Virus record (IMG/VR): IMGVR_UViG_3300048919_000112
Span: 1 to 29,881 of that record
Strand: one strand, 5' to 3'
Length of the DNA stretch: 29,881 nucleotides
Origin: a virus
Below the pieces are notes generated by a model. That model did no database searches. It was given only the letters and a program-made list of their open reading frames with translations, and had not been told where the DNA came from. Shown in pieces: positions 1,112 to 18,403 of the stretch; within the stretch, counting starts at the first letter, position 1, and every line of letters begins with the position of its first letter. A program made the translations under genes and the position numbers.

Positions 1112-1188
1112 TGGGAGGGGAGAAGGATTCGAACCTCCATCACTTAAGACGCTTTGGGCGCTTGCCTTACCAGTCAGCCATCCCCTCC
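1112..1188 (-). tRNA. tRNA-like element with odd anticodon arm
   Basis: On the minus strand there is a clear T-arm: GGAGG, a TTCGAAT loop, then CCTTC. A 7-bp acceptor-like helix (GAGGGGA with TCCCCTC) is present, as is a short D-arm containing CTGG. The expected anticodon arm is irregular: AAGCG pairs with CGTCTT only if one U is bulged, and the 7-nt loop CCCAAAG lacks the conserved U33. Read at the normal place the triplet is CAA (Leu). The acceptor helix can extend one pair further (G-1 with the base after the helix), and the CCA-like end begins without a separate discriminator base. It is therefore either a degenerate tRNA, a tRNA with an unusual anticodon arm, or a tRNA mimic. It sits just after a terminator on the same strand. 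Confidence 0.55.
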
Positions 1189-1821: not shown

Positions 1822-2142
1822 TTAAAGCTTGATGCCACTTGCCTGCATTACAGCAGGTGCCACCGCCATGGCATGGGCAGCATCTTCAGCCACGGTTACC
1901 CGTGCCATCAGAAATTGCCCCGTCACTTCAGACGGTTGGCTGCCGAGATCCCAGCTACTGTGAGTGGCTTTACCACTGCACAATACGCTGAGAACCGGGA
2001 TGCCTGCTTCTTTGCACAGACTGTGGAGATTGGTCAGAGCCTCTTCCACAGCCGGTGGCAAATCAGCCGGCAAAGCGGATGGCTGCTTTACAGCAGCAAT
2101 CCAGTCCTGAATGGTGAACTGGTCACCAACCAGCATGGTCAT
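1822..2142 (-). CDS. Hypothetical protein
   Basis: 106 residues. Its ATG at 2142 overlaps the previous gene's TAA as TAATG, and a second ATG lies two codons further in. The sequence is mostly helical and Ala-rich, with two cysteines in the middle (LCKEAG and VLCSGK) that do not form a recognisable metal site. There is no membrane segment or signal peptide. The family is not recognised. Tight coupling with the upstream gene suggests a shared function. Confidence 0.65.
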   Translation of the reverse strand: MTMLVGDQFTIQDWIAAVKQPSALPADLPPAVEEALTNLHSLCKEAGIPVLSVLCSGKATHSSWDLGSQPSEVTGQFLMARVTVAEDAAHAMAVAPAVMQASGIKL

Positions 2143-2735
2143 TACAGACGACCGACTTTTTCTTTCAGTGCATCGGCCATCAGGCCTGCTACCAGACCTT
2201 GAATGCCGTCCATCTTCGGTGCCAGACCGGCAGCAACCAGACGCTTGTGAGCCTCGATGCTGGCGAGTCTGAACTCGCCGAAACGCTTGGTGAACACTTG
2301 GAGATCAGGCAGGCTGCCAGCTTCCACGCGCTTTTGCAGGGATTCGGACACGTCCAGCATGATGCTCGACAGTTCCTGAATCGAAGACGCTTCGCCGATG
2401 CCGTACACGAAGTCTTCATCGCTTACGACGAAATGCTCGCCATTGACGATGGCCGACACGATGTAGCAGTGCGGGCATTCGTTACCAATGGCTTCGGTGA
2501 CGATTTCAGCCAGCGACTTTTCAGGGTTTTCTTTGATACCAGCGTCACCCACGGCAGCTTCACTGATATAAGTCTGCTTGGCACCAACCACGAATGGTGG
2601 TTGTTTCTTGTCAGCTTGCAGGCTGTTCAACACTTCCTGCTTCAGCGCCTTGATCAGTTCGCTGTCGTTCAGGCTGTTGGCATTCATCATGGCTTCCGTC
2701 AGAGTACGGATGGCCAGTGCTTTTTCATGTTTCAT
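2142..2735 (-). CDS. Hypothetical protein, first gene of the left small-gene operon
   Basis: 197 residues starting at MKHEKALAIRTL. This start is chosen because GGAG lies six bases upstream. The frame stays open to an ATG at 2846, adding 37 Ser/Thr/Pro-rich residues after a weaker AGGT, so the longer form cannot be excluded. The protein has a single CPHC pair at about residues 107-110 with no second pair visible, so a complete zinc finger is not shown. The C-terminal half is helical. No family is recognised. It is the first gene after the 1.35-kb gene-free RNA-like region. Confidence 0.7.
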   Translation of the reverse strand: MKHEKALAIRTLTEAMMNANSLNDSELIKALKQEVLNSLQADKKQPPFVVGAKQTYISEAAVGDAGIKENPEKSLAEIVTEAIGNECPHCYIVSAIVNGEHFVVSDEDFVYGIGEASSIQELSSIMLDVSESLQKRVEAGSLPDLQVFTKRFGEFRLASIEAHKRLVAAGLAPKMDGIQGLVAGLMADALKEKVGRL

Positions 2736-2912
2736 GTCTAGCTCCAGTTCATTGGTTTGTATTACACGGGTTGAAGTTGCATTAGAGGTGGGTTCTACCA
2801 CGTCGGTAACCAGTCCGACACTTGACTCACCGGGATTTTCCGGCATCGGTAGCGTACCTGAAATAGCTGTTATTTATTGAATCCCGTCTTTCTACGTTCT
2901 CGGCTACGGCCC
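2736..2912. other. Leader of the left small-gene operon
   Basis: Intergenic unless the longer start at 2846 is used. I see no clear minus-strand sigma70-like promoter here. On the plus strand a TATAAA at 2913-2918 has no good -35 at the normal spacing. Confidence 0.3.
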
Positions 2913-3025
2913 TATAAAAAGGTACATTTACGCGCATGGATACTAGTGTGCAAGGTACATCCACATAGTGATCAGTCTTGTTCAGGAATTGCAGAATCAA
3001 GCAGGGTACTAAGTAGAAACCACCC

Positions 3026-3138
3026 TAATACAACCTCAGGTGTGAACCTCCAAGTTAATGGTCAGCCCACAGAAGTTGTATCAGTTGAAGCGTCACTTCA
3101 AATGGTTTTATGACTTCTTCCCATTAGCACTGAGAAGT
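3026..3138 (+). other. 5' hairpin cluster of the structured RNA locus
   Basis: Several short helices follow each other. ATACAAC pairs with GTTGTAT and encloses AGGT-GTGA-ACCT, a GNRA-type loop only when read on the plus strand. TTGAAG-CGTCA-CTTCAA lies at 3085-3101. ACTTCT (3113-3118) pairs with AGAAGT (3133-3138). Upstream, around 2934-2954, GCGCAT pairs with GTGTGC using two G-U pairs on the plus strand only. Confidence 0.4.
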
Positions 3139-3141
3139 AGT

Positions 3142-3172
3142 GTTACTTACTCGTAACCAATTCTTTTACATC
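3142..3172. repeat. Hairpin-plus-box repeat, copy 1
   Basis: Stem GTTAC / GTAAC with loop TTACTC, followed directly by the 15-nt box CAATTCTTTTACATC. The second copy lies 87 bases downstream with the same loop and box but a different stem sequence that still pairs perfectly. That is a compensatory pattern expected for an RNA element. Confidence 0.6.
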
Positions 3173-3174
3173 TG

Positions 3175-3204
3175 TTGTGAATGGCGTATCACCCCCATTC
3201 ACAA
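3175..3204. other. 10-bp perfect hairpin
   Basis: TTGTGAATGG at 3175-3184 pairs perfectly with CCATTCACAA at 3195-3204 across a 10-nt loop. It lies between the two hairpin-plus-box repeats. Confidence 0.55.
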
Positions 3205-3228
3205 TCGGATCTCCAATTTCTCGGAGGC

Positions 3229-3259
3229 TCTGCTTACTCGCAGACAATTCTTTTACATC
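3229..3259. repeat. Hairpin-plus-box repeat, copy 2
   Basis: Stem TCTGC / GCAGA with the same TTACTC loop as copy 1, then the identical 15-nt box CAATTCTTTTACATC. Stem bases differ from copy 1 at most positions while pairing is kept. Confidence 0.6.
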
Positions 3260-3282
3260 AGTGAAACCACATTTTTTCCAAA

Positions 3283-3298
3283 CGTATTTTTCAATACG
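3283..3298. other. 6-bp hairpin
   Basis: CGTATT and AATACG enclose four bases, TTTC on plus and GAAA (a GNRA loop) on minus. This one detail favours the minus strand, against the wobble evidence of the longer helices. Confidence 0.4.
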
Positions 3299-3400
3299 AG
3301 TACTGCACTATCCAACTGTCACCCTCAGTAGTCTTCTGCTTACAACGGTAGTTAACAAACTGGGGTTCTTGATGATTAGTTTTTGATATCTCACATGAGA

Positions 3401-3504
3401 CATCGGGGGTAAAACTCTGACTAACAGCACTGCCCGTTCTGCACTGTCAGCCCTACGTACAAGAGGCTAGAACAAATGGACATAGTTGAGTTTTACCTCC
3501 GATG
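3401..3504 (+). other. Structured module A, closed by a 17-bp helix
   Basis: Bases 3401-3417 pair with 3488-3504 over 17 positions. The only non-Watson-Crick pair is G3407 with U3498, a wobble on the plus strand. The 70-nt interior can form TGAC/GTCA (3418-3421 with 3446-3449) and GCC/GGC (3450-3452 with 3465-3467) arms, giving a branched fold of about 104 nt. Confidence 0.55.
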
Positions 3505-3533
3505 CGTCATGGCAAGGCACAATCGGGTTTGTT

Positions 3534-3553
3534 AAACCAGTTGTCTCTGGTTT
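3534..3553. other. 7-bp hairpin between modules
   Basis: AAACCAG-TTGTCT-CTGGTTT, perfect pairing, followed by a GC-rich stretch (CGCGGCGGGGCGGCAGC). There is no T-run, so it is not a terminator. Confidence 0.5.
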
Positions 3554-3578
3554 CGCGGCGGGGCGGCAGCAAATAAGA

Positions 3579-3663
3579 GGAAGTCTGTCAGATTGTCCCA
3601 ATGGGCCACACTCTGAAACGCTGCGGATGCAATCGGAGTAACATCCTCATCAGCCAGACTTCC
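3579..3663. other. Structured module B, three-way junction
   Basis: A 9-bp closing helix (3579-3587 with 3655-3663) encloses two arms. One is CAGA/TCTG (3589-3592 with 3612-3615) capped by CCC-AAT-GGG. The other is GCTG/CAGC (3620-3623 with 3651-3654) continued by GGATG/CATCC (3625-3629 with 3642-3646). The second arm abuts the closing helix and could stack on it. The total of 85 nt is close to tRNA size. Confidence 0.5.
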
Positions 3664-3672
3664 AAACTAAGA

Positions 3673-3728
3673 GGAAGTTCATACACCGGCGCGAATCCAC
3701 GACGATGAGGTTAGGCATATGAACTTCC
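3673..3728. other. Structured module C, closed by an 11-bp helix
   Basis: GGAAGTTCATA at 3673-3683 pairs perfectly with TATGAACTTCC at 3718-3728. The first six bases of the 5' arm (GGAAGT) repeat those of module B's closing helix, so alternative pairings between modules B and C are possible. Confidence 0.5.
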
Positions 3729-3736
3729 AATATGGC

Positions 3737-3812
3737 GGTGCCTAGTACAAATGCTGCCCGTGACGTCACATCACAGCAACCACGTCTGTACAAACGTGTC
3801 ACATAAAGCACC
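3737..3812. other. Structured module D, weaker three-way junction
   Basis: GGTGC (3737-3741) pairs with GCACC (3808-3812). Inside, TGCTG (3752-3756) pairs with CAGCA (3774-3778) and CACGT (3781-3785) pairs with ACGTG (3794-3798). The helices are only 5 bp each, so this module is less certain than its neighbours. Confidence 0.35.
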
Positions 3813-3820
3813 ATGTAGGG

Positions 3821-3907
3821 TGTGGGTCTGTTGCAGTGTCTGCTCACACTGCAAAATGCTACGGAATAACGCTAGGCAAGAATTATTCAATATCAAGCAG
3901 ACCCACA
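3821..3907 (+). other. Structured module E, clean three-way junction
   Basis: TGTGGGTCTG (3821-3830) pairs perfectly with CAGACCCACA (3898-3907) and extends outward by two G-U pairs (3819-3820 with 3908-3909) on the plus strand only. Directly stacked inside is TTGCAGTGT-CTGCTC-ACACTGCAA (3831-3854, 9 bp). A second arm GAATAA / TTATTC spans 3864-3888 with a 13-nt loop. This is the most convincing single module. Confidence 0.55.
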
Positions 3908-3916
3908 TTAAAAGGG

Positions 3917-4020
3917 TGGGTTCTCTACTACGACTACTTACGCTGCACTTAGGCCTGCGTGTTTGTCTTCCTCTTAATTGCGGTAGCTAGCCTAAGCTTT
4001 CGGAGTTAGTAGAGATCCCA
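3917..4020 (+). other. Structured module F, closed by a 14-position helix
   Basis: Bases 3917-3930 pair with 4007-4020 with one U-U mismatch, and a further G3916-U4021 wobble is available on the plus strand. Inside, CTTAGGC (3948-3954) pairs with GCCTAAG (3990-3996). Confidence 0.5.
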
Positions 4021-4027
4021 TAAAGAG

Positions 4028-4111
4028 TGGAACTACGACAGGGGTCGAACCTGTACATATGTCGTTGTCGCGATGACTGACACTGCTCTACCAATTGAGC
4101 TACGTTGTCCC
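4028..4111 (-). tRNA. tRNA-like element, possible CAT anticodon
   Basis: On the minus strand it has a classic D-arm (GCTC, AATTGGTA, GAGC) and T-arm (ACAGG, loop TTCGACC, CCTGT), so tRNA ancestry is strong. The anticodon arm can be drawn as TGTCA / CGACA with an A-C mismatch and loop GTCATCG, giving U33 and anticodon CAT (Met or, if modified, Ile), but with C at 37. The variable region is about 11 nt. The acceptor has an A-A mismatch and extends to about 9 bp with GGG and CC, and a CCA-like end follows without a normal discriminator. At about 83 nt it is long for a class I tRNA. It may be degenerate or an atypical functional tRNA. Confidence 0.6.
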
Positions 4112-4117
4112 ATAAAA

Positions 4118-4215
4118 CTGTTATTCAACTGAGGCCTGCTTAATGAGGTGTTTGGCGCACCAGCTTCAGAACCTAAATTGGGGGGAGAGGTATTCAAGCC
4201 TCATGTGAATAACAG
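4118..4215. other. Structured module H, closed by 16 of 18 pairs
   Basis: Bases 4118-4135 and 4198-4215 pair over 18 positions with a central 2x2 internal loop (10 bp, two mismatches, then 6 bp). The 62-nt interior contains GGTG / CACC and ACCT / AGGT short stems. It starts six bases beyond the tRNA-like element. Confidence 0.5.
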
Positions 4216-4222
4216 ATTAAGC

Positions 4223-4244
4223 AATGGGGCATTACTGCCCCATT
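4223..4244 (-). terminator. Hairpin terminator at the end of the minus-strand operon
   Basis: A 9-bp perfect stem AATGGGGCA / TGCCCCATT with a 4-nt loop begins three bases after the TAA of the 68-residue membrane protein gene. The following minus-strand sequence (GCTTAAT) has only a poor U-tract, so termination may be partial, with read-through into the structured region. Confidence 0.6.
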
Positions 4245-4246
4245 GT

Positions 4247-4453
4247 TTACTGCACGGTACGCAACTCGCCACGAGGCACCCATCCGTTGGCAGTTTTCAC
4301 TGTACAACCGATGAATGGCCGGTATTGAGTATCACGTTCCAGAGAGTAGCCGTAATACCAGCACTGGGTGCGATTTACTGCTGAATTCAGCAGAAAACCA
4401 ATCAGTACGGTAACTACGACACCGAACACGACATGACGCGCTTTAAGCTTCAA
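4247..4453 (-). CDS. Small membrane-anchored protein, TTG start
   Basis: 68 residues. One hydrophobic segment (about residues 8-26) near the N-terminus is followed by a polar domain with two cysteines (QCWYYGYSLERDTQYRPFIGC) and a conserved-looking NGWVPRGELR stretch. This suggests a type II or signal-anchored protein whose C-terminal domain lies in the periplasm. No ATG exists in the frame before the hydrophobic segment. The TTG at 4453 overlaps the upstream gene's end by 11 bases and is the likely start, though no strong ribosome binding site is visible. It is followed immediately by a hairpin terminator. Function unknown. Confidence 0.65.
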   Translation of the reverse strand: MKLKARHVVFGVVVTVLIGFLLNSAVNRTQCWYYGYSLERDTQYRPFIGCTVKTANGWVPRGELRTVQ

Positions 4454-4880
4454 TGCCGTAATCGCTCAGACGCTGGCCGAGTTCACGAGCCAGAGTTTGC
4501 AGCACCACCAGTTCTTCTGGTTCGATCTCGCCGTCGGCTTTCGCGATGGCAATGACGTTGACCATGACTTCTTCCTCATCATTGGCGTTGTTCGCCACAT
4601 CGCGAATTTCGCGCAGGATCTTCATCTTGCCTACGCCGAAGTCGGCGTCGAGCAGACCGGAGAACTTGGTGATGGTTTTGCTGATCTCGTTACCGAAGTG
4701 AGCGAGGTTGTCGTTCGAACGAATCAGTTGATCCAGCTTTTGCTGTTCTTCTTTTTCGAGCGAACCATCAGCGTACGCAACCAGAAGGCCGCCACCTACG
4801 ATGGCTTCCATCAGATCACGGTTTTCAACTTTCTTGGCTTTGCCCAAAAGGCTGCCAAAAGCTTTACCAATACCGAACAT
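4443..4880 (-). CDS. TerB-like protein
   Basis: 145 residues, all-helical. Two paired acidic segments, AYADGSLEKEE (about residues 35-45) and AKADGEIEPEEL (about 111-122), match the repeated pattern of TerB/DjlA-type domains, which are found in tellurite-resistance proteins and some phage proteins and are proposed to bind divalent metal. The N-terminal MFGIGKAFGSLLGKAKK is amphipathic and could touch membrane, but it is not a signal peptide. The family's role in phages is not established. Phage resistance or membrane stress functions are speculative. The start ATG at 4880 comes just after the upstream stop at 4883. Confidence 0.65.
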   Translation of the reverse strand: MFGIGKAFGSLLGKAKKVENRDLMEAIVGGGLLVAYADGSLEKEEQQKLDQLIRSNDNLAHFGNEISKTITKFSGLLDADFGVGKMKILREIRDVANNANDEEEVMVNVIAIAKADGEIEPEELVVLQTLARELGQRLSDYGIEA

Positions 4881-4882
4881 GG

Positions 4883-5395
4883 TTATTCCTGCTTGGATTG
4901 AACTTGCTTGGCTGGCTTTACCAACCGTTCAGCAGGCTCATTGGTTGGAGTAGGAGCGACTTGCGTTGGAGGAGTTTGATGCTCCGCCTGCGCACGCCGC
5001 ACTTCTGCGAAACCAGCTTGCCATTCAGCAGAATTAGCTGCTTCACGGGCATCACCAGAAACCACGTTGTACGGGTTTACTGGTTGAGGTTCAGATGGGC
5101 CAAGTGGCTTGGCAGCGGCTGCCATCCCTTTACGGAAGGCTTCGCTGACAGTAGTAGGCTCATCAATGTCTGGTTTACCGTTAACGCCGTTCTCCGACAT
5201 CCAGCCAAGATAGCTGATGGATAACAGCACAGAGGCTGATGGTACGCCGTATGCGTCCTTCAAAGCATTAAGCTTTGGAATGGACAACTCTTGCGTGTCA
5301 GACCCTACCACGGTGCTGTGAGGCACCCACATACCGGGTTGCTGCACCATAAAGGACAGCAGATACCAGTATTTGTATGGAACCGGAGTTGCCAT
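4883..5395 (-). CDS. Hypothetical protein with Pro/Ala-rich tail
   Basis: 170 residues. The first 90 or so look folded and aromatic-rich (YKYWYLLSFMVQQPGMWVPH). The last 80 are rich in Pro, Ala, Glu and Gln and probably disordered. There is no signal peptide and no recognised family. The ATG at 5395 is preceded by GGAG at good spacing. A C-UCC-G hairpin lies in the gap between it and the upstream gene. Confidence 0.65.
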   Translation of the reverse strand: MATPVPYKYWYLLSFMVQQPGMWVPHSTVVGSDTQELSIPKLNALKDAYGVPSASVLLSISYLGWMSENGVNGKPDIDEPTTVSEAFRKGMAAAAKPLGPSEPQPVNPYNVVSGDAREAANSAEWQAGFAEVRRAQAEHQTPPTQVAPTPTNEPAERLVKPAKQVQSKQE

Positions 5396-5420
5396 GCTTG
5401 CTCCTTACAGAGCCGAAAGA

Positions 5421-5435
5421 GCGCACGGAGTGCGC
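5421..5435 (-). repeat. C-UCC-G apex hairpin, copy 1
   Basis: GCGCAC-TCC-GTGCGC on the minus strand, in the gap between two genes and followed by CTCTTT. It is one of five hairpins in the window with this same triloop and different stems. Confidence 0.6.
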
Positions 5436-5451
5436 CCTAACGGCAAACCGA

Positions 5452-5856
5452 TTACGAGAACAGGCTGGTGGTGCCAGTAGCTTCAGCAGTAACAGCTTGT
5501 TCAATCGGTGCATCGACCTGAGCTTCAGCAGGTTCTGGTTCAACCGGAGCCGGATCGGCCAGTTGTTCTTGAACCAGTGCAGGCTTGGCTTCAGGTTCAG
5601 AAGTGGTTTGCGCAGCAGTAGCAGTGCCCACTTCGCCAGCTTCTTTCGGTGCAGTGGTCTTCCGAGGATCAGCTTTAACTGGTTCCTTCGGATCAGCACC
5701 TTCGATGGTTTCGACCAGACGGGCTACGACACCCTTGTTCTTACGACCGATGGTGTACTCGATCTTGACGCTGGCAGGATCGAGGTTGAAGCCACGGCTG
5801 TTCAGGTAGGTGACCACACCGGCAGTGATTTCTTTTTCGGTAATGCTTACTTCCAC
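5452..5856 (-). CDS. Hypothetical protein with acidic linker and SSB-like SLFS tail
   Basis: 134 residues from a GTG at 5856, chosen because AGG lies upstream and the frame beyond it (to 5940) runs into the upstream gene. Residues 1-50 form a compact domain (VEVSITEKEITAGVVTYLNS and DPASVKIEYTIGRK). Residues 55-128 are a Pro/Ala/Glu-rich linker. The last five residues are TSLFS. The phage SSB encoded three genes upstream in the same operon ends in SSLFS, so the two proteins share a C-terminal peptide after a flexible linker. This suggests a common binding partner, but that is inference. No family recognised. Confidence 0.65.
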   Translation of the reverse strand: MEVSITEKEITAGVVTYLNSRGFNLDPASVKIEYTIGRKNKGVVARLVETIEGADPKEPVKADPRKTTAPKEAGEVGTATAAQTTSEPEAKPALVQEQLADPAPVEPEPAEAQVDAPIEQAVTAEATGTTSLFS

Positions 5857-7741: not shown

Positions 7742-7785
7742 AAAGCTAGGTACTCCTTAAAACGGGTAAAGATGATTGCAAAGCA

Positions 7786-7800
7786 GGCCACGGAGTGGCC
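7786..7800 (-). repeat. C-UCC-G apex hairpin, copy 2
   Basis: GGCCAC-TCC-GTGGCC on the minus strand, six bases after the stop of the Sak4-like gene and followed by TGCTTTG. It may stabilise or end the upstream message. Confidence 0.6.
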
Positions 7801-7806
7801 CGCAGG

Positions 7807-8529
7807 TTAGCTACCGTAGTATTCAATGAAACGGTTTTGAACGTGCATCACATCGTTGTCGATGTAGATCTCGTTGTCGTCCCACATGCCCATTGGCCCA
7901 CGGATACGCTCGGCAAGAGTGCCGGACGTTACGTCAGTCTGGAACACGTATTTGAACCCACGTGCCTTGTCCTTCTCGGTGATCACCAGCAGGTCATTGG
8001 TTTCCGTGAGGACGTCCAGTTTGACTTTCTTGGTGTAGATCACAGTGGTGAAGTACGCTTCGATGCCGTTGTTCTTCAGTGCGCCTTGAACCGGTACGGA
8101 CGTCTCGATGACGTGTTCCGATTCGTTCAGCTTGTCAGCCGTGTGGGCAGTGAAGATAACGGTCTTGGTGGACTTGGCCACCTTCTCCTGCATCAGGCGC
8201 TTGAAGTACTGCTGGAAGTTACCCCATGCAGCACGACCGTCTTCCGAGCCGTTCACGTACAACGAGACGTACATTTCCAGCAGGAAAGTCAGACTGTCGA
8301 TAACGATGAACTTGCACTCTGGGTGCAGCTCCGCAACGTCGAAGGCTTCGAACAGTTGCAGCGGATCGGTTACGGTCAGATCCCACTTGAACTGGCCACG
8401 AAACGGGCGTTTCTTGCCAGCTTCCGTGTTCAGGTACATCGTGGCATCAAGCGGCAAGTTACGCAGGGCTGCGGACTTACCAGTTGCGGACTTGCCGCAA
8501 ATTAACAACAGGTGGTCGTTGGATTGCAT
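7807..8529 (-). CDS. Sak4-like RecA-fold ATPase (N4 gp44 type)
   Basis: 240 residues. Walker A GKSATGKSA at residues 12-20, Walker B FIVIDS at about 74-79, and a downstream TVIFTAHTAD (about 123-132) that fits the third beta strand with a polar sensor. Length and order match Sak4 proteins, short RecA-core ATPases that promote single-strand annealing with a phage SSB, and here the SSB gene is next downstream. The ATG at 8529 has GGA upstream and sits just after the C-UCC-G hairpin that follows the primase gene. Confidence 0.75.
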   Translation of the reverse strand: MQSNDHLLLICGKSATGKSAALRNLPLDATMYLNTEAGKKRPFRGQFKWDLTVTDPLQLFEAFDVAELHPECKFIVIDSLTFLLEMYVSLYVNGSEDGRAAWGNFQQYFKRLMQEKVAKSTKTVIFTAHTADKLNESEHVIETSVPVQGALKNNGIEAYFTTVIYTKKVKLDVLTETNDLLVITEKDKARGFKYVFQTDVTSGTLAERIRGPMGMWDDNEIYIDNDVMHVQNRFIEYYGS

Positions 8530-8571: not shown

Positions 8572-10727
8572 TAAGCGGCAGTTAGAGCTTTGGACACTGA
8601 AACCATAATGGTCGTGACCAGCTCCTGTTCTTCCAGCTTGTCAGGCATCTTGTTGTTCAGGTCTTTGACCTTTTCGAGGATCTGCTCCAGCTTGAAACCA
8701 CTGTCCACGAGGGACATGGCATAGCGGTGCAGCATCACATTACGGTTACCGTCACCCGAATTGTTGAGAATCCAACGTTCCCAGTTATCCAAGCTGGCTT
8801 GATCCTGAAGACGCTTCTGGCGTTCTTCGTTCTTCTGGGTCTTCGGAATGTACGGCAGTACGTCGAACAACTCCCCGTCGGTAGCTTCGATGTGCCCGTT
8901 GTGAGACAGCCACTTCTTACACCGGTGGGAACACGATTCGTCCACGACGAACGGCAATGATGCCATTACGTTCTTCATGAACTCCTTGTACTCCTTGGCA
9001 TCCATCTTCAAGGTGAAGTTGGTTGGCAAGACGATACGGAAACGATTGATTTCGTCCGTATGGCTTTTGGTCGTGTAGTAGATAGCCTTGTAATCCTTCA
9101 ACAGCGATTTCGCTGTCTTCAGGGACATTGTGCCGTCGATGTCCAACACGATCATGTTGAATGCCGGAATCGCATTCTCTTCGTTCCGGTAGCCGCCATG
9201 CACATGGTGGTTAAGCCAGTGAAAGCCGGATGCATTGAGAAGCTTCGGTAGCTGCTCCCATGCTGCGTGGTCGTTGACATAACCAGAGGTCATATCGTGG
9301 TTTTTTGTGTAGCTAACCACAAGCTTGGTCAGGTCAGTGGGCTTTAGAGCTTCGCCACTGAGGAACTCGACACCATCAGTAAAGGACTTCTTCACGATGA
9401 TGTTGTTCTTGTAGCCCCATGCAATTGCGTTCACGATCATTTCGTTACGCTGTGAGGCTGAGCCTTTGTAGAAGGCTAGGTCTTCCATCAGGTCTGGGTG
9501 GGTACATTCAGTCCCTACGTTGGCCAGATATTTCGCCAACTTCACGTAGTTACGGTCACGGCTGAGCAACATTTGAAAGGCGTCACCACTGGCTTCAGCC
9601 AGCATGATTCCGTATTCCAGATGTTTCATGGTCAACTCGTCGGAGTCATCCACGAAGGCGTATGCACCGGCCACTTTCAATGCTTTGAAGTAACGGTGCG
9701 ACAGTTCAGCTTTACGCTGTTCTTCATGCTCAGGCATGTCCTGTGCCTTACGGTCACAGTTCAGTTTGTACTCAAGCAGACCTACAGCCGTGTCCTTGTC
9801 CATGGTCAACACTTTGTGCATGTTGGACATGTCAGATAGCAGGCCGAGTTTCTGGCTGTACTGCTGCAAAAAGCCGGAAGTGGTTTTACTGGTCATGAGG
9901 TCATACAGCTCGGAAGCTGTCATGTTCAGGTCTTTCTTCTGCTCCTTGGAGTAGCTGAAGAAACACCGACGGGCATAGCCAGTCTCCAGCATCGAGTTCA
10001 GCTCTTCCTCGATCTTGCCACCGTCCAGCAGTTTTGCTGGTGTACCGAATAACATCACGTTGGTCGGAGTCCGACCGATGATCTCTTCGATACGCACGTT
10101 TTCAGCGGTGTTCTTGATCAGCTTTTCCCGCACTGCACCAACGTCGTACAGTTCAAGACAAGTGGTCAATACCTCTTGGTTTCCCAGTAGGTTGGAGCCA
10201 ATTTCGTCGATGATAAGGTTCATCGCACCGGCTTTACTCATCAGCAGCTTCTGTCGCATCTGCTTGAGTGCTGGCGATGTACCCGAGTCGAAGCTGTAGA
10301 TATATTTCCCCAGCATCTCGTACTCTTTGTACACCTGCGCCTTGATGGTTTCAGGGTCTTTGTCCGGGTCACGGGCTTGACGCTTGAAAACAATCTTTTC
10401 GATTTCCACCTCTGCAATGGTGTCGAAGTTGTCTAGAAAGTTCGTACGGAAGTGATGAGTTACCTCATTCTCCAGAATGTTCGTCGAGAACCCCTTACCC
10501 GCACCGGAGGTAGCAAGGTTTAAGGCGTACATGTTGACCGGGATATCCCCTCGGTCGTGCGTGCGGATCATTACCCGCATCTGTGAAGCCATCATCGAGA
10601 AATGAAAACTCGTCAACACCCGAAAGAACAACCGATGGTTGCTCTGTGTCTTTTCACACAGGATGTCTACGATTTTCTCCATGTCTGGATGAAAGCTCAT
10701 CTCCTCGATAGGACGAAGATGACTCAT
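8571..10727 (-). CDS. AEP-type primase fused to P-loop ATPase (N4 gp42 type)
   Basis: 718 residues, close to the N4 primase length. The N-terminal half holds a P-loop (ATSGAGKG, residues 72-79) and Walker B LIIDE (about 171-175). The C-terminal half has archaeo-eukaryotic primase hallmarks: VLDIDG at about 527-532 (metal-binding DxD), KSHT at about 554-557 and RFRIVLP at about 562-568. A helical PriCT-like tail follows. The expected role is synthesis of primers at the fork. The ATPase half may act in helicase or loader function, though in N4 a separate Dda-like helicase exists. GAGAGG precedes the ATG. The nuclease gene lies directly upstream at 10737. Confidence 0.8.
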   Translation of the reverse strand: MSHLRPIEEMSFHPDMEKIVDILCEKTQSNHRLFFRVLTSFHFSMMASQMRVMIRTHDRGDIPVNMYALNLATSGAGKGFSTNILENEVTHHFRTNFLDNFDTIAEVEIEKIVFKRQARDPDKDPETIKAQVYKEYEMLGKYIYSFDSGTSPALKQMRQKLLMSKAGAMNLIIDEIGSNLLGNQEVLTTCLELYDVGAVREKLIKNTAENVRIEEIIGRTPTNVMLFGTPAKLLDGGKIEEELNSMLETGYARRCFFSYSKEQKKDLNMTASELYDLMTSKTTSGFLQQYSQKLGLLSDMSNMHKVLTMDKDTAVGLLEYKLNCDRKAQDMPEHEEQRKAELSHRYFKALKVAGAYAFVDDSDELTMKHLEYGIMLAEASGDAFQMLLSRDRNYVKLAKYLANVGTECTHPDLMEDLAFYKGSASQRNEMIVNAIAWGYKNNIIVKKSFTDGVEFLSGEALKPTDLTKLVVSYTKNHDMTSGYVNDHAAWEQLPKLLNASGFHWLNHHVHGGYRNEENAIPAFNMIVLDIDGTMSLKTAKSLLKDYKAIYYTTKSHTDEINRFRIVLPTNFTLKMDAKEYKEFMKNVMASLPFVVDESCSHRCKKWLSHNGHIEATDGELFDVLPYIPKTQKNEERQKRLQDQASLDNWERWILNNSGDGNRNVMLHRYAMSLVDSGFKLEQILEKVKDLNNKMPDKLEEQELVTTIMVSVSKALTAA

Positions 10728-10736
10728 TGCTACCTC

Positions 10737-11744
10737 TCAGTTGGATGAAACGATTAAATCGCCGGAGGCGATCAAAGCGTCCTTCTGTTTGCAGGCCATA
10801 AAACCTGCACAGTACAGACACGCCTTTACTTCGCCCTTCACCTCGACAACTACTCCCACGTTACTCATAGCGTTCAAATGAACCATGGCATCGTGGTAAG
10901 TCGTGAAGTTCTTGGTGGAGCGAGAACCGGGAGTGTATGCCTTATCCGGGTCTTTGTAATACTTCCAAACTGGGGCAGTACGCCAAAGATCATCATCCGT
11001 ACATGGAGGAAGCATTTCTTCTGGGGCATCCATAAGACGCACCAGATCACCCACACGTTTGTTTACATAGGCTTCAGTCTGCTCCAGTGAGAGCAAATTG
11101 AAACGCCGTGTCAGCATTCGCTTTTGTGGGTAGTTGGGGTTTGAATAGGACATGGCCTTGCTCCAGTCGGTGAACTGGAACGTTAGGTTCATGTAGTCCT
11201 TGGTGATCTTCTTTGGATCAAGCCAGCGATACATGCTGCCTTGCAGGATGTAGTCGTCGTCCTTCTTACCGGACAGGTAAGTGAACACGCTGGTGTTCTT
11301 CAGGTCTTCAACAACTCCATCAATCACAGCGTCAAACTTGCCGCTGACCGGGATGCCATGCACTAGCTTCTTGAGTCGCAGCTCAAAGTAGGCAGGGATG
11401 ATGCCACCGGCAGCAACTTCTTCTGGTGTTGGATTGACCTTCAGTTTGTTGGCTGCACCGGGTGGAATACCCAGTGAGATCAACACTTCTTTCAGTCGTG
11501 GATTGGCAGTCCATGACTTCTCGAAACCATCGTGAACAGCAGTACCTACTGAGGATGCTATGTAGTCTTCCACGTCTGGAATAACCAGACCCGGTTCAAC
11601 TCGCTTGCTCAGGATCACTTGCTTCAATGGTTTCAGCAAAGTTGTCACAGACAACCCAGCTTCTTTATGGTCGTACCAGTCTGTCGCCAAGAAGACTTGG
11701 GCATACAGGCTTAAGCCAGTACGGTTGGTGAACTTAGCTGTCAT
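10737..11744 (-). CDS. Cas4/RecB-like PD-(D/E)XK nuclease with Fe-S cysteines (N4 gp43 type)
   Basis: 335 residues from the ATG at 11744, which has GAGGA upstream. H71 in GTAVHDGFE, D138 in GKFDAVIDG, and the E-D-L-K motif at about 146-149 followed by a Q at about 168 make a complete RecB-family active site. Cysteines at about 253 and in CLYCAGFMAC (about 313-322) could bind an iron-sulphur cluster as in Cas4 and AddB. It probably resects or trims DNA ends in recombination-dependent replication. It ends with a C-UCC-G hairpin inside its last codons and overlaps the upstream small gene by 11 bases. Confidence 0.75.
   Translation of the reverse strand: MTAKFTNRTGLSLYAQVFLATDWYDHKEAGLSVTTLLKPLKQVILSKRVEPGLVIPDVEDYIASSVGTAVHDGFEKSWTANPRLKEVLISLGIPPGAANKLKVNPTPEEVAAGGIIPAYFELRLKKLVHGIPVSGKFDAVIDGVVEDLKNTSVFTYLSGKKDDDYILQGSMYRWLDPKKITKDYMNLTFQFTDWSKAMSYSNPNYPQKRMLTRRFNLLSLEQTEAYVNKRVGDLVRLMDAPEEMLPPCTDDDLWRTAPVWKYYKDPDKAYTPGSRSTKNFTTYHDAMVHLNAMSNVGVVVEVKGEVKACLYCAGFMACKQKDALIASGDLIVSSN
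10758..10772 (-). repeat. C-UCC-G apex hairpin, copy 4 (inside a coding region)
   Basis: ATCGCC-TCC-GGCGAT on the minus strand, about 20 bases before the stop codon of the nuclease gene. Confidence 0.5.
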
Positions 11745-13132: not shown

Positions 13133-14425
13133 ATGGCCGAACTCAATAACGTGTGTTCCATCAATGCTGATGGTACTTACACTTGTGGTACTGGTGGATG
13201 GGTTGGCCCACGTCCGGGTGACCCGTCTACTTCTGATGTGCGTATTACGGCAACACCGGCATTTGGTGGTATCGACGTCAACTGGACGTACCCACAAATC
13301 AATCCAGAAGCTGTTGCGTACACCAAGGTATTTCGTAGTCTGTTGCCTGACGTGAACAGTGCAACAGTGCGTGAAGTTGTGCAGGGTAGTTTCTTTTACG
13401 ACCGTATCAATGACCCTACCAAACCCGTCTACTACTACTGGGTGCAGATTACTTCGGTCTACGGTACTGTTTCTGAAATGATTGGCCCTGCGTGGGCTAC
13501 AGCTAAACCGCTCATTGAAGAAATGATCGAAGAGTTGACCGGACAGATTGACGCGGGCGTATTGGCACAGTCGTTAAAGCAGGAAATTGATCAGATCACC
13601 CTGAATAAGTTGGGCATTACGCAGGAAATGATTGATCGTGATGCCAACGATGATGCGCTGGGTGTGCGGATCACTGAAGTTAGTGCTCACTCAGGGGAGA
13701 CACGAGCACTGGTACAAGAAGAAGTGCTGGCACGAGTAAGTCAAGGTGAAGCTTTTGTCAGTACAGTGAACACACTGTACACAGAGCTTAACGGTAATAT
13801 TTCGGCTGTGCAGACCACAGTTACTGCATTGACTACTCAAGTGGCTTCGTTGGCACAACAAATCACCAACGTTGAATCCGATTTTGGCGATAACTTGGCG
13901 CAAGTGCAGCAAACGTTGCAAACCAACATTGACACAGTGAACGGTAAAGTAGTGTCTATTGGTGCGCTGTGGACAGCGCAGGTTAACGTCAATGGATTGA
14001 TTGGTGGTTTCGGTGTGTACAACGACGGGCAGACTGTCGAAGCAGGGTTTGACGTTGACCGTTTCTGGATCGGTCGTACAGGTGCCAACAAACGCAAACC
14101 TTTCATTATTGACAGCGGTGTGGTCTACATTGACGAAGCGGCTATCAATAAGCTCACGTTTAGTAAACTGCGCGATGAATCTGGTTCGTTCGTGGTACAG
14201 AACGGTAAAGTAAAAGCTCAGTACATCGAAGTAGACACTCTGGTTATGCGCCAAGGCCAGTCTACTAACTATGTTTGGAACCAAACTGGTTGGGCTTTCA
14301 CTGCTGACGGGCAGTTTCAAATGAATGGCAGCGGTACAGGTACAGGTGGGCGTTTAATGATGCAAAACAACGGTCTGTTCGGTTATCACCCTAATGGCGT
14401 TATCGCCTTTGCGTTGACCGTCTAA
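13133..14425 (+). CDS. Tail tip/fibre protein with lambda J-type C-terminal region (DUF1983-like)
   Basis: 430 residues. The N-terminal 120 resemble a fibronectin-III-like beta domain (GGIDVNWTYPQINPEAVAYTKVFRS and PVYYYWVQITSVYGTVSE). Residues 130-275 are helical and coiled-coil-like with repeated Thr/Gln-rich heptads. Residues about 275-320 (GALWTAQVNVNGLIGGFGVYN, then GFDVDRFWIG) match the DUF1983 pattern found at the end of lambda J-like host-specificity proteins, followed by a beta-rich C-terminus. It probably forms a trimeric tip or fibre in adsorption. AGGAGGG just before the ATG is a strong ribosome binding site. It starts a plus-strand operon facing away from the central minus-strand genes. 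Confidence 0.75.
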   Translation: MAELNNVCSINADGTYTCGTGGWVGPRPGDPSTSDVRITATPAFGGIDVNWTYPQINPEAVAYTKVFRSLLPDVNSATVREVVQGSFFYDRINDPTKPVYYYWVQITSVYGTVSEMIGPAWATAKPLIEEMIEELTGQIDAGVLAQSLKQEIDQITLNKLGITQEMIDRDANDDALGVRITEVSAHSGETRALVQEEVLARVSQGEAFVSTVNTLYTELNGNISAVQTTVTALTTQVASLAQQITNVESDFGDNLAQVQQTLQTNIDTVNGKVVSIGALWTAQVNVNGLIGGFGVYNDGQTVEAGFDVDRFWIGRTGANKRKPFIIDSGVVYIDEAAINKLTFSKLRDESGSFVVQNGKVKAQYIEVDTLVMRQGQSTNYVWNQTGWAFTADGQFQMNGSGTGTGGRLMMQNNGLFGYHPNGVIAFALTV

Positions 14426-14426
14426 C

Positions 14427-14729
14427 ATGTCCGGGCTTCAGATGTGGGACAACGGCGGTCGTTTGTTGGTTGATATGACAATGCATATCAGCCAGTTACA
14501 AGGTTATGTAGACACCGGAGCGGTTAATGGTTCTATTGCTATTCCGCCTCCGCCCAGTGGAAAGACACAATATTTCACTGTAGTGCCTCTTCAGGACTTA
14601 CAACTGGAAAAGGGCAAGAAGCCGGGGGTCACCTTATCAGGTGGTGTACTGTCATGGGCTTATTCGTACTCAACCAGCGGCTGGGGCTATTTTTCAGCTA
14701 ACTGCCGAATCTTTTATTGGTATTACTAA
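14427..14729 (+). CDS. Small tail-associated protein
   Basis: 100 residues, beta-rich, starting MSGLQMWDNGGRLLVDMTMHIS. This opening resembles small proteins encoded after J-like tip genes in siphophages. It has no signal peptide or catalytic motif, and an aromatic C-terminus (FSANCRIFYWYY). It follows the tip gene by one base, and its TAA overlaps the next ATG. A fibre-tip accessory or chaperone role is likely but unproven. Confidence 0.65.
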   Translation: MSGLQMWDNGGRLLVDMTMHISQLQGYVDTGAVNGSIAIPPPPSGKTQYFTVVPLQDLQLEKGKKPGVTLSGGVLSWAYSYSTSGWGYFSANCRIFYWYY

Positions 14730-15625
14730 TGTCTTCATTGATCGTACAAAAAGACACTACTGAGCTATTGTTTGACACCAACTTTATTGCTTATGGTTTG
14801 GTCAAGAGTGGCTACATGTCTTTGCTGGCGTATTGGACACGTAAAACCATGCCCAATACGTCACTCGACCCGAACTGGGGAGGAAATTGGACACAATCTA
14901 CTTCTTCTTCTAACCCTAATTTTGGTGATGCTGTTTATGGTTTCACTGTAGCAAATGCCATTTCACCAATTGTGTTTATCACAGGCTCTGGTTGTCTTGT
15001 CGGTTCTGCTGTGTCTGGCAGCTCGATTACGTTTTACTACACCAATGCCACCACCAGTACCAAGTTCTTCTGCTTCGATCTGATGGCTGATAACTTGCCC
15101 GGCACCACGTCTTTGAAAACATGGACGGATCAAGGCCGGATTACCTTCAATTCGTTACAACCCCCATTGAATGTAATCGGGGCTATCACAGCACCTGCAC
15201 CGGGTGCGCCTACGGCTGCGGGCGGCTATTACACTGTTTACACAGGCGGCTATAATAGACAACGGCAAGCTGGTACTGATGTACCTGGTATTTCCTATAT
15301 GCCGCAATGTGAGTCTGTTATAGACATTCCTCTAACAGCTGGCGTTGAGTACGCTGCGTACCTGCCATGGTCGCGTTCTTGCGGTATTAACGATTTGTTT
15401 AGTGGCTCGACACGGCCTTACTATCGTTACTCTGGCTCTGAAGGCGCATACGGCAATGTTGGAAGTATGTCGTTCATCATGGGCGCCACTGCTGCAACTA
15501 CCATGTCCTACCCTAATGTTGGGCCGGGTGTGGTTGTGCCTTGTTCGTTTGATAATTTGCCCATTGACCGGTTCCCTACAGCTTTGATAATCACTACAGC
15601 TACACTACTTTTCCCGTACAATTAA
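14729..15625 (+). CDS. Hypothetical tail/fibre protein
   Basis: 298 residues from the ATG at 14729, which overlaps the previous stop as TAATG. The frame has an earlier ATG at 14717 inside the upstream gene. It is Gly/Ser/Thr- and Tyr-rich and all-beta in appearance (for example GGYYTVYTGGYNRQRQAGTD), typical of extracellular phage fibres or receptor-binding heads. No enzyme motif is recognised. It is followed by a small hairpin CACGG-GCAGG-CCGTG at 15634-15648 before the large fibre gene. Confidence 0.65.
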   Translation: MSSLIVQKDTTELLFDTNFIAYGLVKSGYMSLLAYWTRKTMPNTSLDPNWGGNWTQSTSSSNPNFGDAVYGFTVANAISPIVFITGSGCLVGSAVSGSSITFYYTNATTSTKFFCFDLMADNLPGTTSLKTWTDQGRITFNSLQPPLNVIGAITAPAPGAPTAAGGYYTVYTGGYNRQRQAGTDVPGISYMPQCESVIDIPLTAGVEYAAYLPWSRSCGINDLFSGSTRPYYRYSGSEGAYGNVGSMSFIMGATAATTMSYPNVGPGVVVPCSFDNLPIDRFPTALIITTATLLFPYN

Positions 15626-15670
15626 TTGCATATCACGGGCAGGCCGTGTTAACACCAATGAGGGATGTCC

Positions 15671-18403
15671 ATGACACCTGTAAAATTCAAATTCCTGACG
15701 CCTATGGGCGACCCGATTGCTTTACAGGAATTTACCGTGTCCTTGAACAAGGCCGCGTACCACAGTGGTTCTGATGGTTTCGTTTATCCTGACGTGACCG
15801 TTGGTACTACTGACGCTCAAGGTGAAGCCACCTTGGAACTCTTTCCGGCGAACGTTCCTTACTATGTGGAAATGACACTGGAAGAGGACATTAACGACGA
15901 AACTTGCTGTGCCAAGTTGCGTTTTCGGATTGCCGTACCTAAACAAGATACTCTGGTTTGGGCGGATGATTTGGTCATCACTGACCCTATCTTTTCGCAG
16001 GCGTGGGACGCTGAAGCCATTGAAACCATTTTGCAGGCCAAAGCTGCGGCTGCGGCTTCTGCATCAGCTGCTGCCACCTCTGCGGCTGCTTCGGCAAACA
16101 GCGCTACATCGTCTGCTGGTTCAGCTACAGCATCTGCAAACAGTGCTACTGCCAGTGCCAACAGTGCAACAGCTTCCGCTGGCTCTGCTAACACGGCCAG
16201 CACCAAAGCCTCCGAATCCGCTGCTTCTGCCGCAGACTCTTTGGCTTCGCGTAACCAAGCTGAAGGTTTTAAAACTGCGGCTGAGACGGCCAGCACTAAT
16301 GCCACTGCAAGTTCGACGCTTGCACAGAAATGGGCAGCTAACCCTGAAGACAGCGTAGTTTCTGGTGGGTTGTACAGTTCGTTTCACTACAGCCGTAAAG
16401 CGGCAGCTTTTGCCACTAACGCTGCATCCGCTGCTACCTCTGCATCGAACAGTGCCACCACTGCTACCACCAAGGCAGGTGAAGCCTCTACGTCTGCATC
16501 AGCGGCTGCTGCCGACAAAGCAACGGTAGCCGCAGACAAGGCTAATGTGGCTGCGGACAAGGCCCTTGTTTTTGGTTACAAGACTGACGTGGCTGCTGAT
16601 AAAGCTGCCGTGTCTGTGTTCGCTTTACGCTACGCAGGTTCGGTGGCTGTGGCTCCAACCACACGTACTGATGGCAGTGCTTTGCAGGCCGGTGATGAAT
16701 ACTTCAACACTGGTAACCAGCTTCGTTACAACTGGTCTGGCAGTGCATGGGTACAATTGAACCAGTCAGTGGCTGGTTTGACTGCCACACTGAATGCTGC
16801 GGGTGTTGCGACCTACTGTGCGCAAATGACTGAAGCCAACATGAACAACGCCGATATTCCCAACGGTAAATATACTGTTGCTGTGTCTGGTGTGGGTAAT
16901 GCCCCTATCCAACAGAACGGTTATTTGGACGTGATGGATAACTTGTCGGCAGGTTATCAGAAGCGTACCTACACCACTGTGGTTTCCGGGCGTACCTTCA
17001 CACAGCTGCAAGTTGCAGGTGTTTTTCAGCCATGGAAAGAAGAGACACCTAACGCTGTCACTTCCATTGCTAACTTGCGCCTTATTACCAAAGGCTCCAT
17101 CAACGTTGCTCACGTATTGGGTTACTACGCTTTTGGTGACAACGGTGGTGGTTGGTACTACTACGACTCGACAGACACCACTTCTACGGACAATGGCGGT
17201 ACTATCATTGTGGGTGCAGACGGTGGTCGCTGGAAACGCAGTACCACTACAGGCCTTACCGTGTTGCACTTTGGTGGAAAAGCAGATGGCGCGTTCAATA
17301 ACACGCCTGTAGTCACTGCAATGATCGCAGCAGGTTTTCGTGATATCTGCTACGGCGCTGTAGGTACATTCCACCACACCAGTGCTATTACCATTCCACA
17401 GAACGTGAACATCAAGTTCTCTGGTATTGGTTTCCGTATGACTACATTGACGGCCAGTGCAGCCACTGGTTTTCAGTTGTTCTCTTACCAGCGTGTATCG
17501 GGTCAAGCGCCTTCGGTGGCTACCTTTGAAGACCTTGTGATGCGCTGGACTGGTACAGCCAATATCGCTAACTCTGCGGCTATCTCGTACTACGGGGCTA
17601 GCGATGCAGAAAGCGACTGCTGGTTCCGTACTGAACGCTGCTCGTTTTACGGATGGCAGTGGGCACGTTCGGCCAAATGGGCTGGACAAGTTCACAGCAC
17701 CAAGGACTTTTTCAGCAACAACACCATCGATAACAACATGCTGCGTGGCTGTTCGTTCTGGTATTACGACAGCTCGATGAGCTTTTCGCCAACCTTCATC
17801 AAGGCTACGGATACGCTGACTGACGCGTTTTCCAATGGCTTGTTCATTAACGGTTGTCATAACGTCACGGCAGCGGCTGAGTGTGTACTGATTCAAGGAT
17901 GGCAGGCAGTATTTATTGACTCCTGTGGTTTTGACCTTGGTACAGGTGGTACGGCTGCTGTTAAATTCATCAACAGCCAAGATCTGTACGTGGACAAGTG
18001 CTTTATCTCAGGTGCCAGCGTGTCTACGCGGGATGGTGTGGTATTTGATAACTCTCACACAGGTGCTGTTACCGATTGCACATTGAATAACAATGGTCGA
18101 GCAATCCGCTTCTTGAACAGCAGTTCTGCAATTTCGCAGAAGATTACTGTGCGTGGCTGCAAATTCCAAGGCAACATGTTCAACGACATCCTGCTCAGCA
18201 CCAATACTCAAGGCTGTAAGTTTGTAGAGAACCATCACCAGACAAGCATGGATCGTACAGGCACTAACTATGAAGTGTACGGTTCGCTCACTGGTGCTGG
18301 TAATAACATCTGCAAGTTCAACACCTTTGCTGGTGTTGCTTACACCCCTGATCTTGGGGCAGGCAGTATCGTTGGTGAAAACATTTTTGGCTGTAAACCA
18401 TAA
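15671..18403 (+). CDS. Large tail fibre / tailspike with Ala/Ser coiled coil and beta-helix region
   Basis: 910 residues from the ATG at 15671 (GAGGG six bases before; an ATG at 15665 has none at normal spacing). Residues 1-115 form an N-terminal beta domain, probably the virion anchor. Residues 115-315 are low-complexity Ala/Ser/Thr/Asn repeats with recurring SATASANSATAS and AADKA units, likely a trimeric coiled-coil shaft. Residues 390-460 resemble fibre knob modules (QKRTYTTVVSGRTFTQLQV). From about 465 a tailspike-like head-binding motif (YYAFGDNGGGWYYYD) leads into a right-handed beta-helix-like C-terminus with Asn/Asp-rich turns. This is the probable receptor-binding protein, possibly with polysaccharide-degrading activity. 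No catalytic residues can be assigned. Confidence 0.8.
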   Translation: MTPVKFKFLTPMGDPIALQEFTVSLNKAAYHSGSDGFVYPDVTVGTTDAQGEATLELFPANVPYYVEMTLEEDINDETCCAKLRFRIAVPKQDTLVWADDLVITDPIFSQAWDAEAIETILQAKAAAAASASAAATSAAASANSATSSAGSATASANSATASANSATASAGSANTASTKASESAASAADSLASRNQAEGFKTAAETASTNATASSTLAQKWAANPEDSVVSGGLYSSFHYSRKAAAFATNAASAATSASNSATTATTKAGEASTSASAAAADKATVAADKANVAADKALVFGYKTDVAADKAAVSVFALRYAGSVAVAPTTRTDGSALQAGDEYFNTGNQLRYNWSGSAWVQLNQSVAGLTATLNAAGVATYCAQMTEANMNNADIPNGKYTVAVSGVGNAPIQQNGYLDVMDNLSAGYQKRTYTTVVSGRTFTQLQVAGVFQPWKEETPNAVTSIANLRLITKGSINVAHVLGYYAFGDNGGGWYYYDSTDTTSTDNGGTIIVGADGGRWKRSTTTGLTVLHFGGKADGAFNNTPVVTAMIAAGFRDICYGAVGTFHHTSAITIPQNVNIKFSGIGFRMTTLTASAATGFQLFSYQRVSGQAPSVATFEDLVMRWTGTANIANSAAISYYGASDAESDCWFRTERCSFYGWQWARSAKWAGQVHSTKDFFSNNTIDNNMLRGCSFWYYDSSMSFSPTFIKATDTLTDAFSNGLFINGCHNVTAAAECVLIQGWQAVFIDSCGFDLGTGGTAAVKFINSQDLYVDKCFISGASVSTRDGVVFDNSHTGAVTDCTLNNNGRAIRFLNSSSAISQKITVRGCKFQGNMFNDILLSTNTQGCKFVENHHQTSMDRTGTNYEVYGSLTGAGNNICKFNTFAGVAYTPDLGAGSIVGENIFGCKP

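Follow-up and report, generated by a model that had tools for sequence, protein, structure and literature searches.

The window, a 29.9-kb virus record of a Schitoviridae (N4-like) phage, contains a non-coding stretch on the minus strand (4246..2736, with the 5′ end near 4246 and the 3′ end near 2736, as delimited by the flanking genes) that is a candidate for a large RNA. Sequence comparison showed that several N4-like phages share, in one genomic position, a conserved 3′ domain consisting of motif A, hairpins with GAGUAA loops and the helix system S1. Within the predicted RNA of the window it further identified motif B, a distinct three-way junction that is linked to tRNAs. In S1 and in a second system, S2, one strand was found to have two conserved predicted partners, a near one upstream and one farther downstream with which the pairing is longer in most phages. 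The 3′ domain and motif B are very likely structured and conserved. With a long non-coding interval and helices that covary in relatives, the stretch is, as judged from these alignments, of the kind of the large structured phage non-coding RNAs. That it encodes such an RNA on the minus strand, stable and with a function in trans, has, in our estimate, about an even chance.

The conserved 3′ domain and its competing helices

A blastn search of the window region against INPHARED (50,697 phage records) yielded zero matches, and a 15-mer scan of viral contigs gave chance matches only. The loci of relatives were fetched via the polymerase and then compared by nhmmer. Matches among these loci were weak, for the most part shared one genomic position and were all on the same strand, and the locus of the 3′ domain was always situated between the replication genes and the gene for the virion RNA polymerase (vRNAP). 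The records are referred to by name or label (L004, 98PfluR60PP; L005, Littlefix; L146 and L147, CRC2 and CL; L139, PEV2; L227, AlfredRasser). L012 and L013 are identical across the locus, and L004 is closely related to L005, as is L011 to L015, leaving about 5 independent lineages. Both motifs were missing from 10 phages of other Schitoviridae groups and from LUZ7, PEV2, TEMp-D2, L010, L014, L016 and L017.

Motif A covers 96 nt of the minus strand (3018..3113). A covariance model of it, R2, was built on four other phages with the window left out. On the held-out window R2 scored 53.9 bits (E 8.8e-11), and it also matched the metagenomic phages L011 and L015 with an E value of 2e-10; all motif A matches were located downstream of the same replication genes. 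When seven sequences (six distinct) were aligned, 95.0% of the cells were paired. Double changes were present in 13 of 27 pairs, whereas shuffles gave 5.0 ± 1.6 and slid controls 0-4; the alignment was fitted to the structure, and three of its members had been held out of R2. The initial annotation of this DNA had named covariation of the helices among N4-like homologues as a check on a giant RNA, and covariation was observed here as well as in motif B (see below). In Littlefix an annotated protein gene (gp08, 10432-10548) is located inside the RNA and overlaps motif A; it is probably a false gene.

In the window, L004, L005 and L008 the predicted elements follow each other on the minus strand in a common order, which is from 5′ to 3′ an AGACAA hairpin, a AACCCGAU-type strand, S1, a hairpin, GAGUAA-type hairpins and motif A. 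The stem of the AGACAA-loop hairpin (motif C, 3534..3554, minus strand) covaries, with the versions ACCAG/CUGGU, CUCAG/CUGAG and CAUGG/CCAUG. All strands of S1 lie on the minus strand. Strand b (AUCGGAGG..., 3488..3503) is the 5′ strand of a long helix, in which it forms 15 of 16 pairs with strand a2 (3402..3417) in the window. This helix corresponds to the longest inverted repeat of the initial annotation, and in relatives, with differing sequences, it has 15-21 pairs. Strand a1 (CCCGAU, 3522..3527), the competing local partner, is a complement of b in 5 of 6 records; it reads CCGAU, or CCAAU in L011 and L015, and the local option is largely lost in Littlefix. Directly after a2 a further hairpin (3385..3404, minus strand) was identified, the stem of which also covaries (GUCUC/GAGAU, GCAGA/UCUGC, ACUCA/UGAGU). 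L011 and L015 retain S1 and this hairpin with a different sequence (18 of 19 pairs).

Two hairpins with a GAGUAA loop are located between this hairpin and motif A (3229..3244 and 3142..3157, both minus strand), and the stem of the second one covaries. Across the 7 RNAs, hairpins of this type with at least 4 bp occurred 11 times on the minus strand (in 6 of 7 RNAs) and 0 times on the plus strand, where ∼0.3 were expected from mononucleotide shuffles for a loop pattern that had been picked after being seen. The matches of the covariance models were likewise confined to the minus strand, which identifies it as the RNA strand. When strands of the same phage were paired, 246 of 259 positions matched, compared to 568 of 740 when strands were combined across phages; since the helices were chosen by hand, it is this contrast between own and foreign strands and not the pairing level that constitutes the evidence.

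S2 is located at the 3′ end of the predicted RNA, again on the minus strand. Its strand b (3013..3034) consists of GUUGUAUUAG and the extension GGUGGUUUCUAC. The part at 3034-3025, which is a 3′ strand in motif A, forms 10 of 10 pairs with strand a1 (3075..3084) in helix I. In helix II it forms 10 of 10 pairs with strand a2 (2776..2798; pairs at 2785-2776), and the extension adds 11 of 12 pairs (2798-2787). Strand a2 is situated upstream of the ribosome-binding site of the next gene. The two helices are mutually exclusive, and the minimum free energy (MFE) structure of this part of the window uses helix II. Both options were found in 7 of 7 records, with 9-10 of 10 pairs in helix I and 8-10 of 10 in helix II, and compensatory changes were present at 7 of 10 positions of helix I and 6 of 10 of helix II. 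An equally good downstream partner was found in at most 2 of 200 shuffled sequences for each of the six records tested. Strand triples in general showed no excess over shuffles, and therefore the claim is limited to the orthologous S1 and S2 triples. The initial annotation had assigned no strand and had not included the mutually exclusive helices, and strand a2 lay outside its coordinates. For the direct repeats of S2, a group I or group II intron was considered and discarded, as there was no Rfam match. Cutting of helix II by RNase III as a maturation step was also rejected, since strand b would be cut too.

In 7 of 7 records the distance from the end of helix II to the next ribosome-binding site is at most ∼60 nt. 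In L011 (6422-6601) and L015 (11713-11892) helix II is a hairpin of ∼27 pairs, with ∼10 bases between its end and the ribosome-binding site. A pair of conserved helices that exclude each other is a hallmark of a switch, and the stretch could be a long cis-acting leader in which the change between helices I and II governs how the downstream gene is processed or translated, with the remaining RNA as the sensor. The downstream genes of the different phages probably belong to one fast-evolving family (proteins of 113-198 aa in relatives), which would fit such a leader; its pairwise links are weak (L004-L008 1e-12, L012-L011 5e-5, window-L005 0.002), and the low similarity of these proteins counts against a leader. 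Similar to the bistable leaders of riboswitches and attenuators, the stretch has, ahead of a gene, one strand with two conserved partners that exclude each other, but it is far larger, no terminator or hidden ribosome-binding site was seen and no Rfam ligand domain is present. The ribosome-binding site lies outside the helices in both states as far as seen, no run of U follows helix II, and a leader of 0.7-1.5 kb would be extreme for a small protein. A cis-acting leader is regarded as the most serious alternative, though as rather less likely than not.

Motif B and the variable 5′ half

Motif B is an 85-nt three-way junction (3579..3663, minus strand) that was defined by alignment A1 and the covariance model R1. 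R1 matched five other phages, namely L004, L005, L008 and the Pseudomonas alcaligenes phages CRC2 and CL. In the alignment of 5 sequences 94.3% of the cells were paired, and 12 of 25 pairs carried double changes, where shuffles gave 4.8 ± 1.5 and slid controls 0-3. The closing 9-bp helix P2 was 100% paired in the 5 sequences, with changes on both sides in 6 of 9 pairs. A second, derived copy of motif B (3822..3906, minus strand) was recognized by R1 with 30.3 bits (E 0.0011 in 812 kb). Between both copies an inverted repeat forms a hairpin with a perfect 11-bp stem (3673..3728, minus strand), which is 15 bp long in the MFE structure. Relaxed motif B patterns were found at 38 places in viral contigs and 28 in genome contigs; apart from two records that were already known, none of them scored as a relative with R1 (best E 0.027), and motif B was thus found in N4-like phages only. 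A hammerhead or another known ribozyme was considered for CUGAUGAG of motif B and rejected, as there is no GAAA after stem II and no Rfam ribozyme match.

The 5′ half of the predicted RNA is variable. It starts with a hairpin that has no alignable relative (4115..4218, minus strand), whose 24-nt arms (4195-4218 and 4115-4138) are 83% complementary. It is followed by a degenerate tRNA-Met(CAT)-like element (4029..4109, minus strand), detected by Rfam (44.3 bits) and ARAGORN, and by a domain-closing helix (3917..4020, minus strand) that is found in the window only and has 14-nt arms of 93% complementarity (4007-4020 and 3917-3930). The embedded tRNA-like element of the initial annotation could thus be located at 4109-4029 on the minus strand. 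Its Rfam score passes, but where a functional tRNA has a regular 7-bp acceptor stem, a 5-bp anticodon stem with a 7-nt loop and CCA, this element has an A.A mismatch in the acceptor stem, an anticodon stem of 4 bp and no CCA. L012 carries a canonical intact tRNA-Arg(TCT) ending in CCA at the same position, and in L011 and L015 an apparent T arm is the sole remnant of a tRNA. From this comparison, a tRNA seems to have entered the variable 5′ half, where it then decays or became structural. In the N4 phage AlfredRasser a tRNA cluster occupies the same slot (4952-5630), with a gap of 352 bases between two of its tRNAs. In CRC2 a run of degenerate tRNA-like sequences (7750-8080) ends just before motif B.

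In L004, L005, L008 and CRC2 motif B is located 13-115 nt past a tRNA or tRNA-like sequence and away from the 3′ domain. Together with the tRNA cluster of AlfredRasser, this could indicate a tRNA island, in which the tRNA-like element, motif B and the 3′ domain are cut apart and motif B serves tRNA processing or binds a tRNA-related factor. In the window, however, motif B follows the degenerate tRNA only after 366 nt and is flanked by long closing helices, and in several phages the 3′ domain is present without an adjacent motif B or an intact tRNA. A tRNA island is considered quite improbable.

Comparison with known RNAs and weighing of the readings

Screening of the window and its relatives against Rfam, at curated and at permissive thresholds, gave nothing credible except tRNA. 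The initial annotation had suggested either a divergent member of the GOLLD or ROOL families or a new class of giant phage RNA. The part of this proposal that concerns a large, structured and conserved RNA was supported by the held-out model matches and the compensatory changes; membership of GOLLD or ROOL was not. At E ≤ 10 the GOLLD model (RF02032) matched neither the window nor any of 13 related records, the ROOL model (RF03087) matched none of 14 N4-like records, and no positive control responded for either of them. The GOLLD gathering score of 150 bits was not reached in the window or its relatives, and a GOLLD positive control sought in 299 Bacillota genomes was not found. As positive controls were lacking for both models, very divergent homology is still possible.

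GOLLD assembles into a 14-mer nanocage and its expression rises during lysis. The candidate RNA resembles GOLLD in its conserved 3′ domain, its unalignable 5′ half with a tRNA or tRNA remnant and its position in a phage tRNA locus. In GOLLD the 3′ region is conserved and the 5′ region less so, with tRNAs sometimes found in the linker, and the env-38 member has a Met-tRNA upstream (PMC12286853). A very divergent GOLLD that is not recognized by the Rfam model would explain this shared layout, including a 5′ region with tRNA-Met or another tRNA. In contrast to GOLLD, the present RNA has GCUGACC...GGAGGU, GAGUAA loops and the S1 and S2 strand exchanges, which were derived from a separate alignment, and no model match was obtained even with permissive filters. 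This origin was judged very unlikely. ROOL is several hundred nt long, phage-encoded and often found near tRNA islands (PMC12286853). The candidate RNA is phage-encoded and tRNA-associated like ROOL, but contains a tRNA-like element, none being reported inside ROOL in the portion of the source available, and does not match its model. The best reading of these comparisons is a putative new class that is similar to GOLLD and ROOL in setting and layout. That this would be a giant phage RNA class unrelated to both, with two conserved strand exchanges, assembly through repeated GAGUAA loops and an origin in the N4-like tRNA locus, is proposed tentatively, with a probability somewhat short of even.

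In the same slot of related Pseudomonas N4-like phages, the gp67.1 region of PEV2 and the corresponding intergenic region of LUZ7 fold into long hairpins. Unlike the window, these regions match neither R1 nor R2 and have no tRNA. The PEV2 record, which is devoid of both motifs, notes very strong transcription of gp67.1 (10958-11119), the sole hint of transcription at this slot, and gp67.1 may be an RNA rather than a protein.

The dense inverted repeats described by the initial annotation were found at the locus, with arms of up to 24 nt. The arms at 3394/3488 are 24 nt long and 88% complementary, and those at 3673/3718, 3175/3195 and 3821/3898 are 100% complementary. For the minus strand of 2880-4255 the MFE was -469.8 kcal/mol; 40 dinucleotide shuffles gave -400.6 ± 8.8 kcal/mol, which corresponds to a z of -7.9. 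A z of -5.1 was obtained for the plus strand of the same interval, and the homologous stretches in relatives gave minus-strand values of -3.2 to -5.2. Folding energy is suggestive, and the real evidence is the covariation. Ordinary intergenic decay, with dead tRNAs, dead genes and chance hairpins, would account for the degenerate tRNA and for a folding energy that is seen even in coding sequence, but not for the compensatory changes, the held-out model matches and the strand-specific loops. As an explanation of the whole stretch it is extremely unlikely; it is refuted for motifs A and B, and could apply to portions of the 5′ half.

Several observations weigh against a large RNA acting in trans. 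A coding control from the window (738 nt) gave z values of -4.7/-4.9, and therefore folding energy alone is no proof of an RNA. No transcript is known from the stretch, and the minus strand of the locus showed neither a promoter nor a terminator. The comparison comprises only 5 to 7 sequences, some of which are closely related, and within the 5′ half of the stretch only motif B and the tRNA could be aligned with relatives. None of the other phages with motif B has it at this place; there it is located beside tRNAs, and the 5′ half may therefore be a unit of its own. The RNA is always followed by a downstream gene, of one family with weak links, which suits a cis-acting leader equally.

If the stretch encodes a trans-acting RNA, it would be transcribed from the minus strand along with the replication genes. 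The near hairpin would form first during transcription, and the long-range helix would replace it once the downstream strand has been made, so that the RNA might fold stepwise through the S1 and S2 strand exchanges. The product would be a stable phage RNA, either an RNA particle or an RNA-protein complex with tertiary contacts between GAGUAA loops, and its role could be comparable to that of GOLLD and ROOL. The variable 5′ half would have taken in a tRNA, which is intact in one relative and decaying in the window. As an independent class, the RNA would occur in lytic N4-like phages, two of which are cultured (Littlefix and 98PfluR60PP), making a role in infection testable. With its conserved conflicting helices, it would also be a natural system in which to test whether a large RNA folds stepwise while it is transcribed.

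Genomic setting of the non-coding stretch

The C-terminal part of the vRNAP is encoded at 18-1106 on the plus strand, with 98PfluR60PP and Littlefix as best relatives (72% identity). It is followed by replication genes in the opposite orientation, encoding a RuvC-like resolvase, a primase, an exonuclease and a DNA polymerase. The locus is situated between the vRNAP and these minus-oriented genes, and therefore the RNA strand is likely the minus strand, which is also that of the tRNA.

On its 5′ side the stretch is bordered by a gene (4247-4453, minus strand) that matches phrog_27356 (E 1.5e-20) and has its stop at 4247. On the 3′ side it is adjoined, in the window and in all relatives, by the downstream gene (2142..2735, minus strand), which has a Shine-Dalgarno sequence and an ATG at 2735. 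The corresponding open reading frame (ORF) extends over 2142-2846; GGAG followed by the ATG at 2735 fits better than a start at 2846, and the genes of relatives begin at the equivalent place. The start is thus probably at 2735, and the first 37 codons of the ORF are probably untranslated. The initial annotation had described 2880-4245 as gene-free, which was correct in that no credible protein gene was detected, and the real stretch (4246..2736) is longer at its low end. Nor did a search for conserved proteins speak for a coding function, as the ORFs within the stretch gave no match below E 0.045 in PHROG or Pfam. Translated comparison with relatives gave short matches in several frames and on both strands, mostly over the region of the tRNA and motif B, a pattern as would be expected from a conserved RNA and not from a protein.

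A TerB/TciA-like gene is located at 4443-4880 (minus strand). Its best relatives are found in P1/P7 and Lana-like phages (57-59%) and not in other N4-like phages, and it was probably acquired. A tRNA-Leu(CAA) gene (1113-1187, minus strand) is separated by only 6 bases from the vRNAP stop codon, which is on the opposite strand. Two tail-fibre-like genes (430 and 912 aa; 13133-18403, plus strand) are located between the oppositely oriented replication genes.

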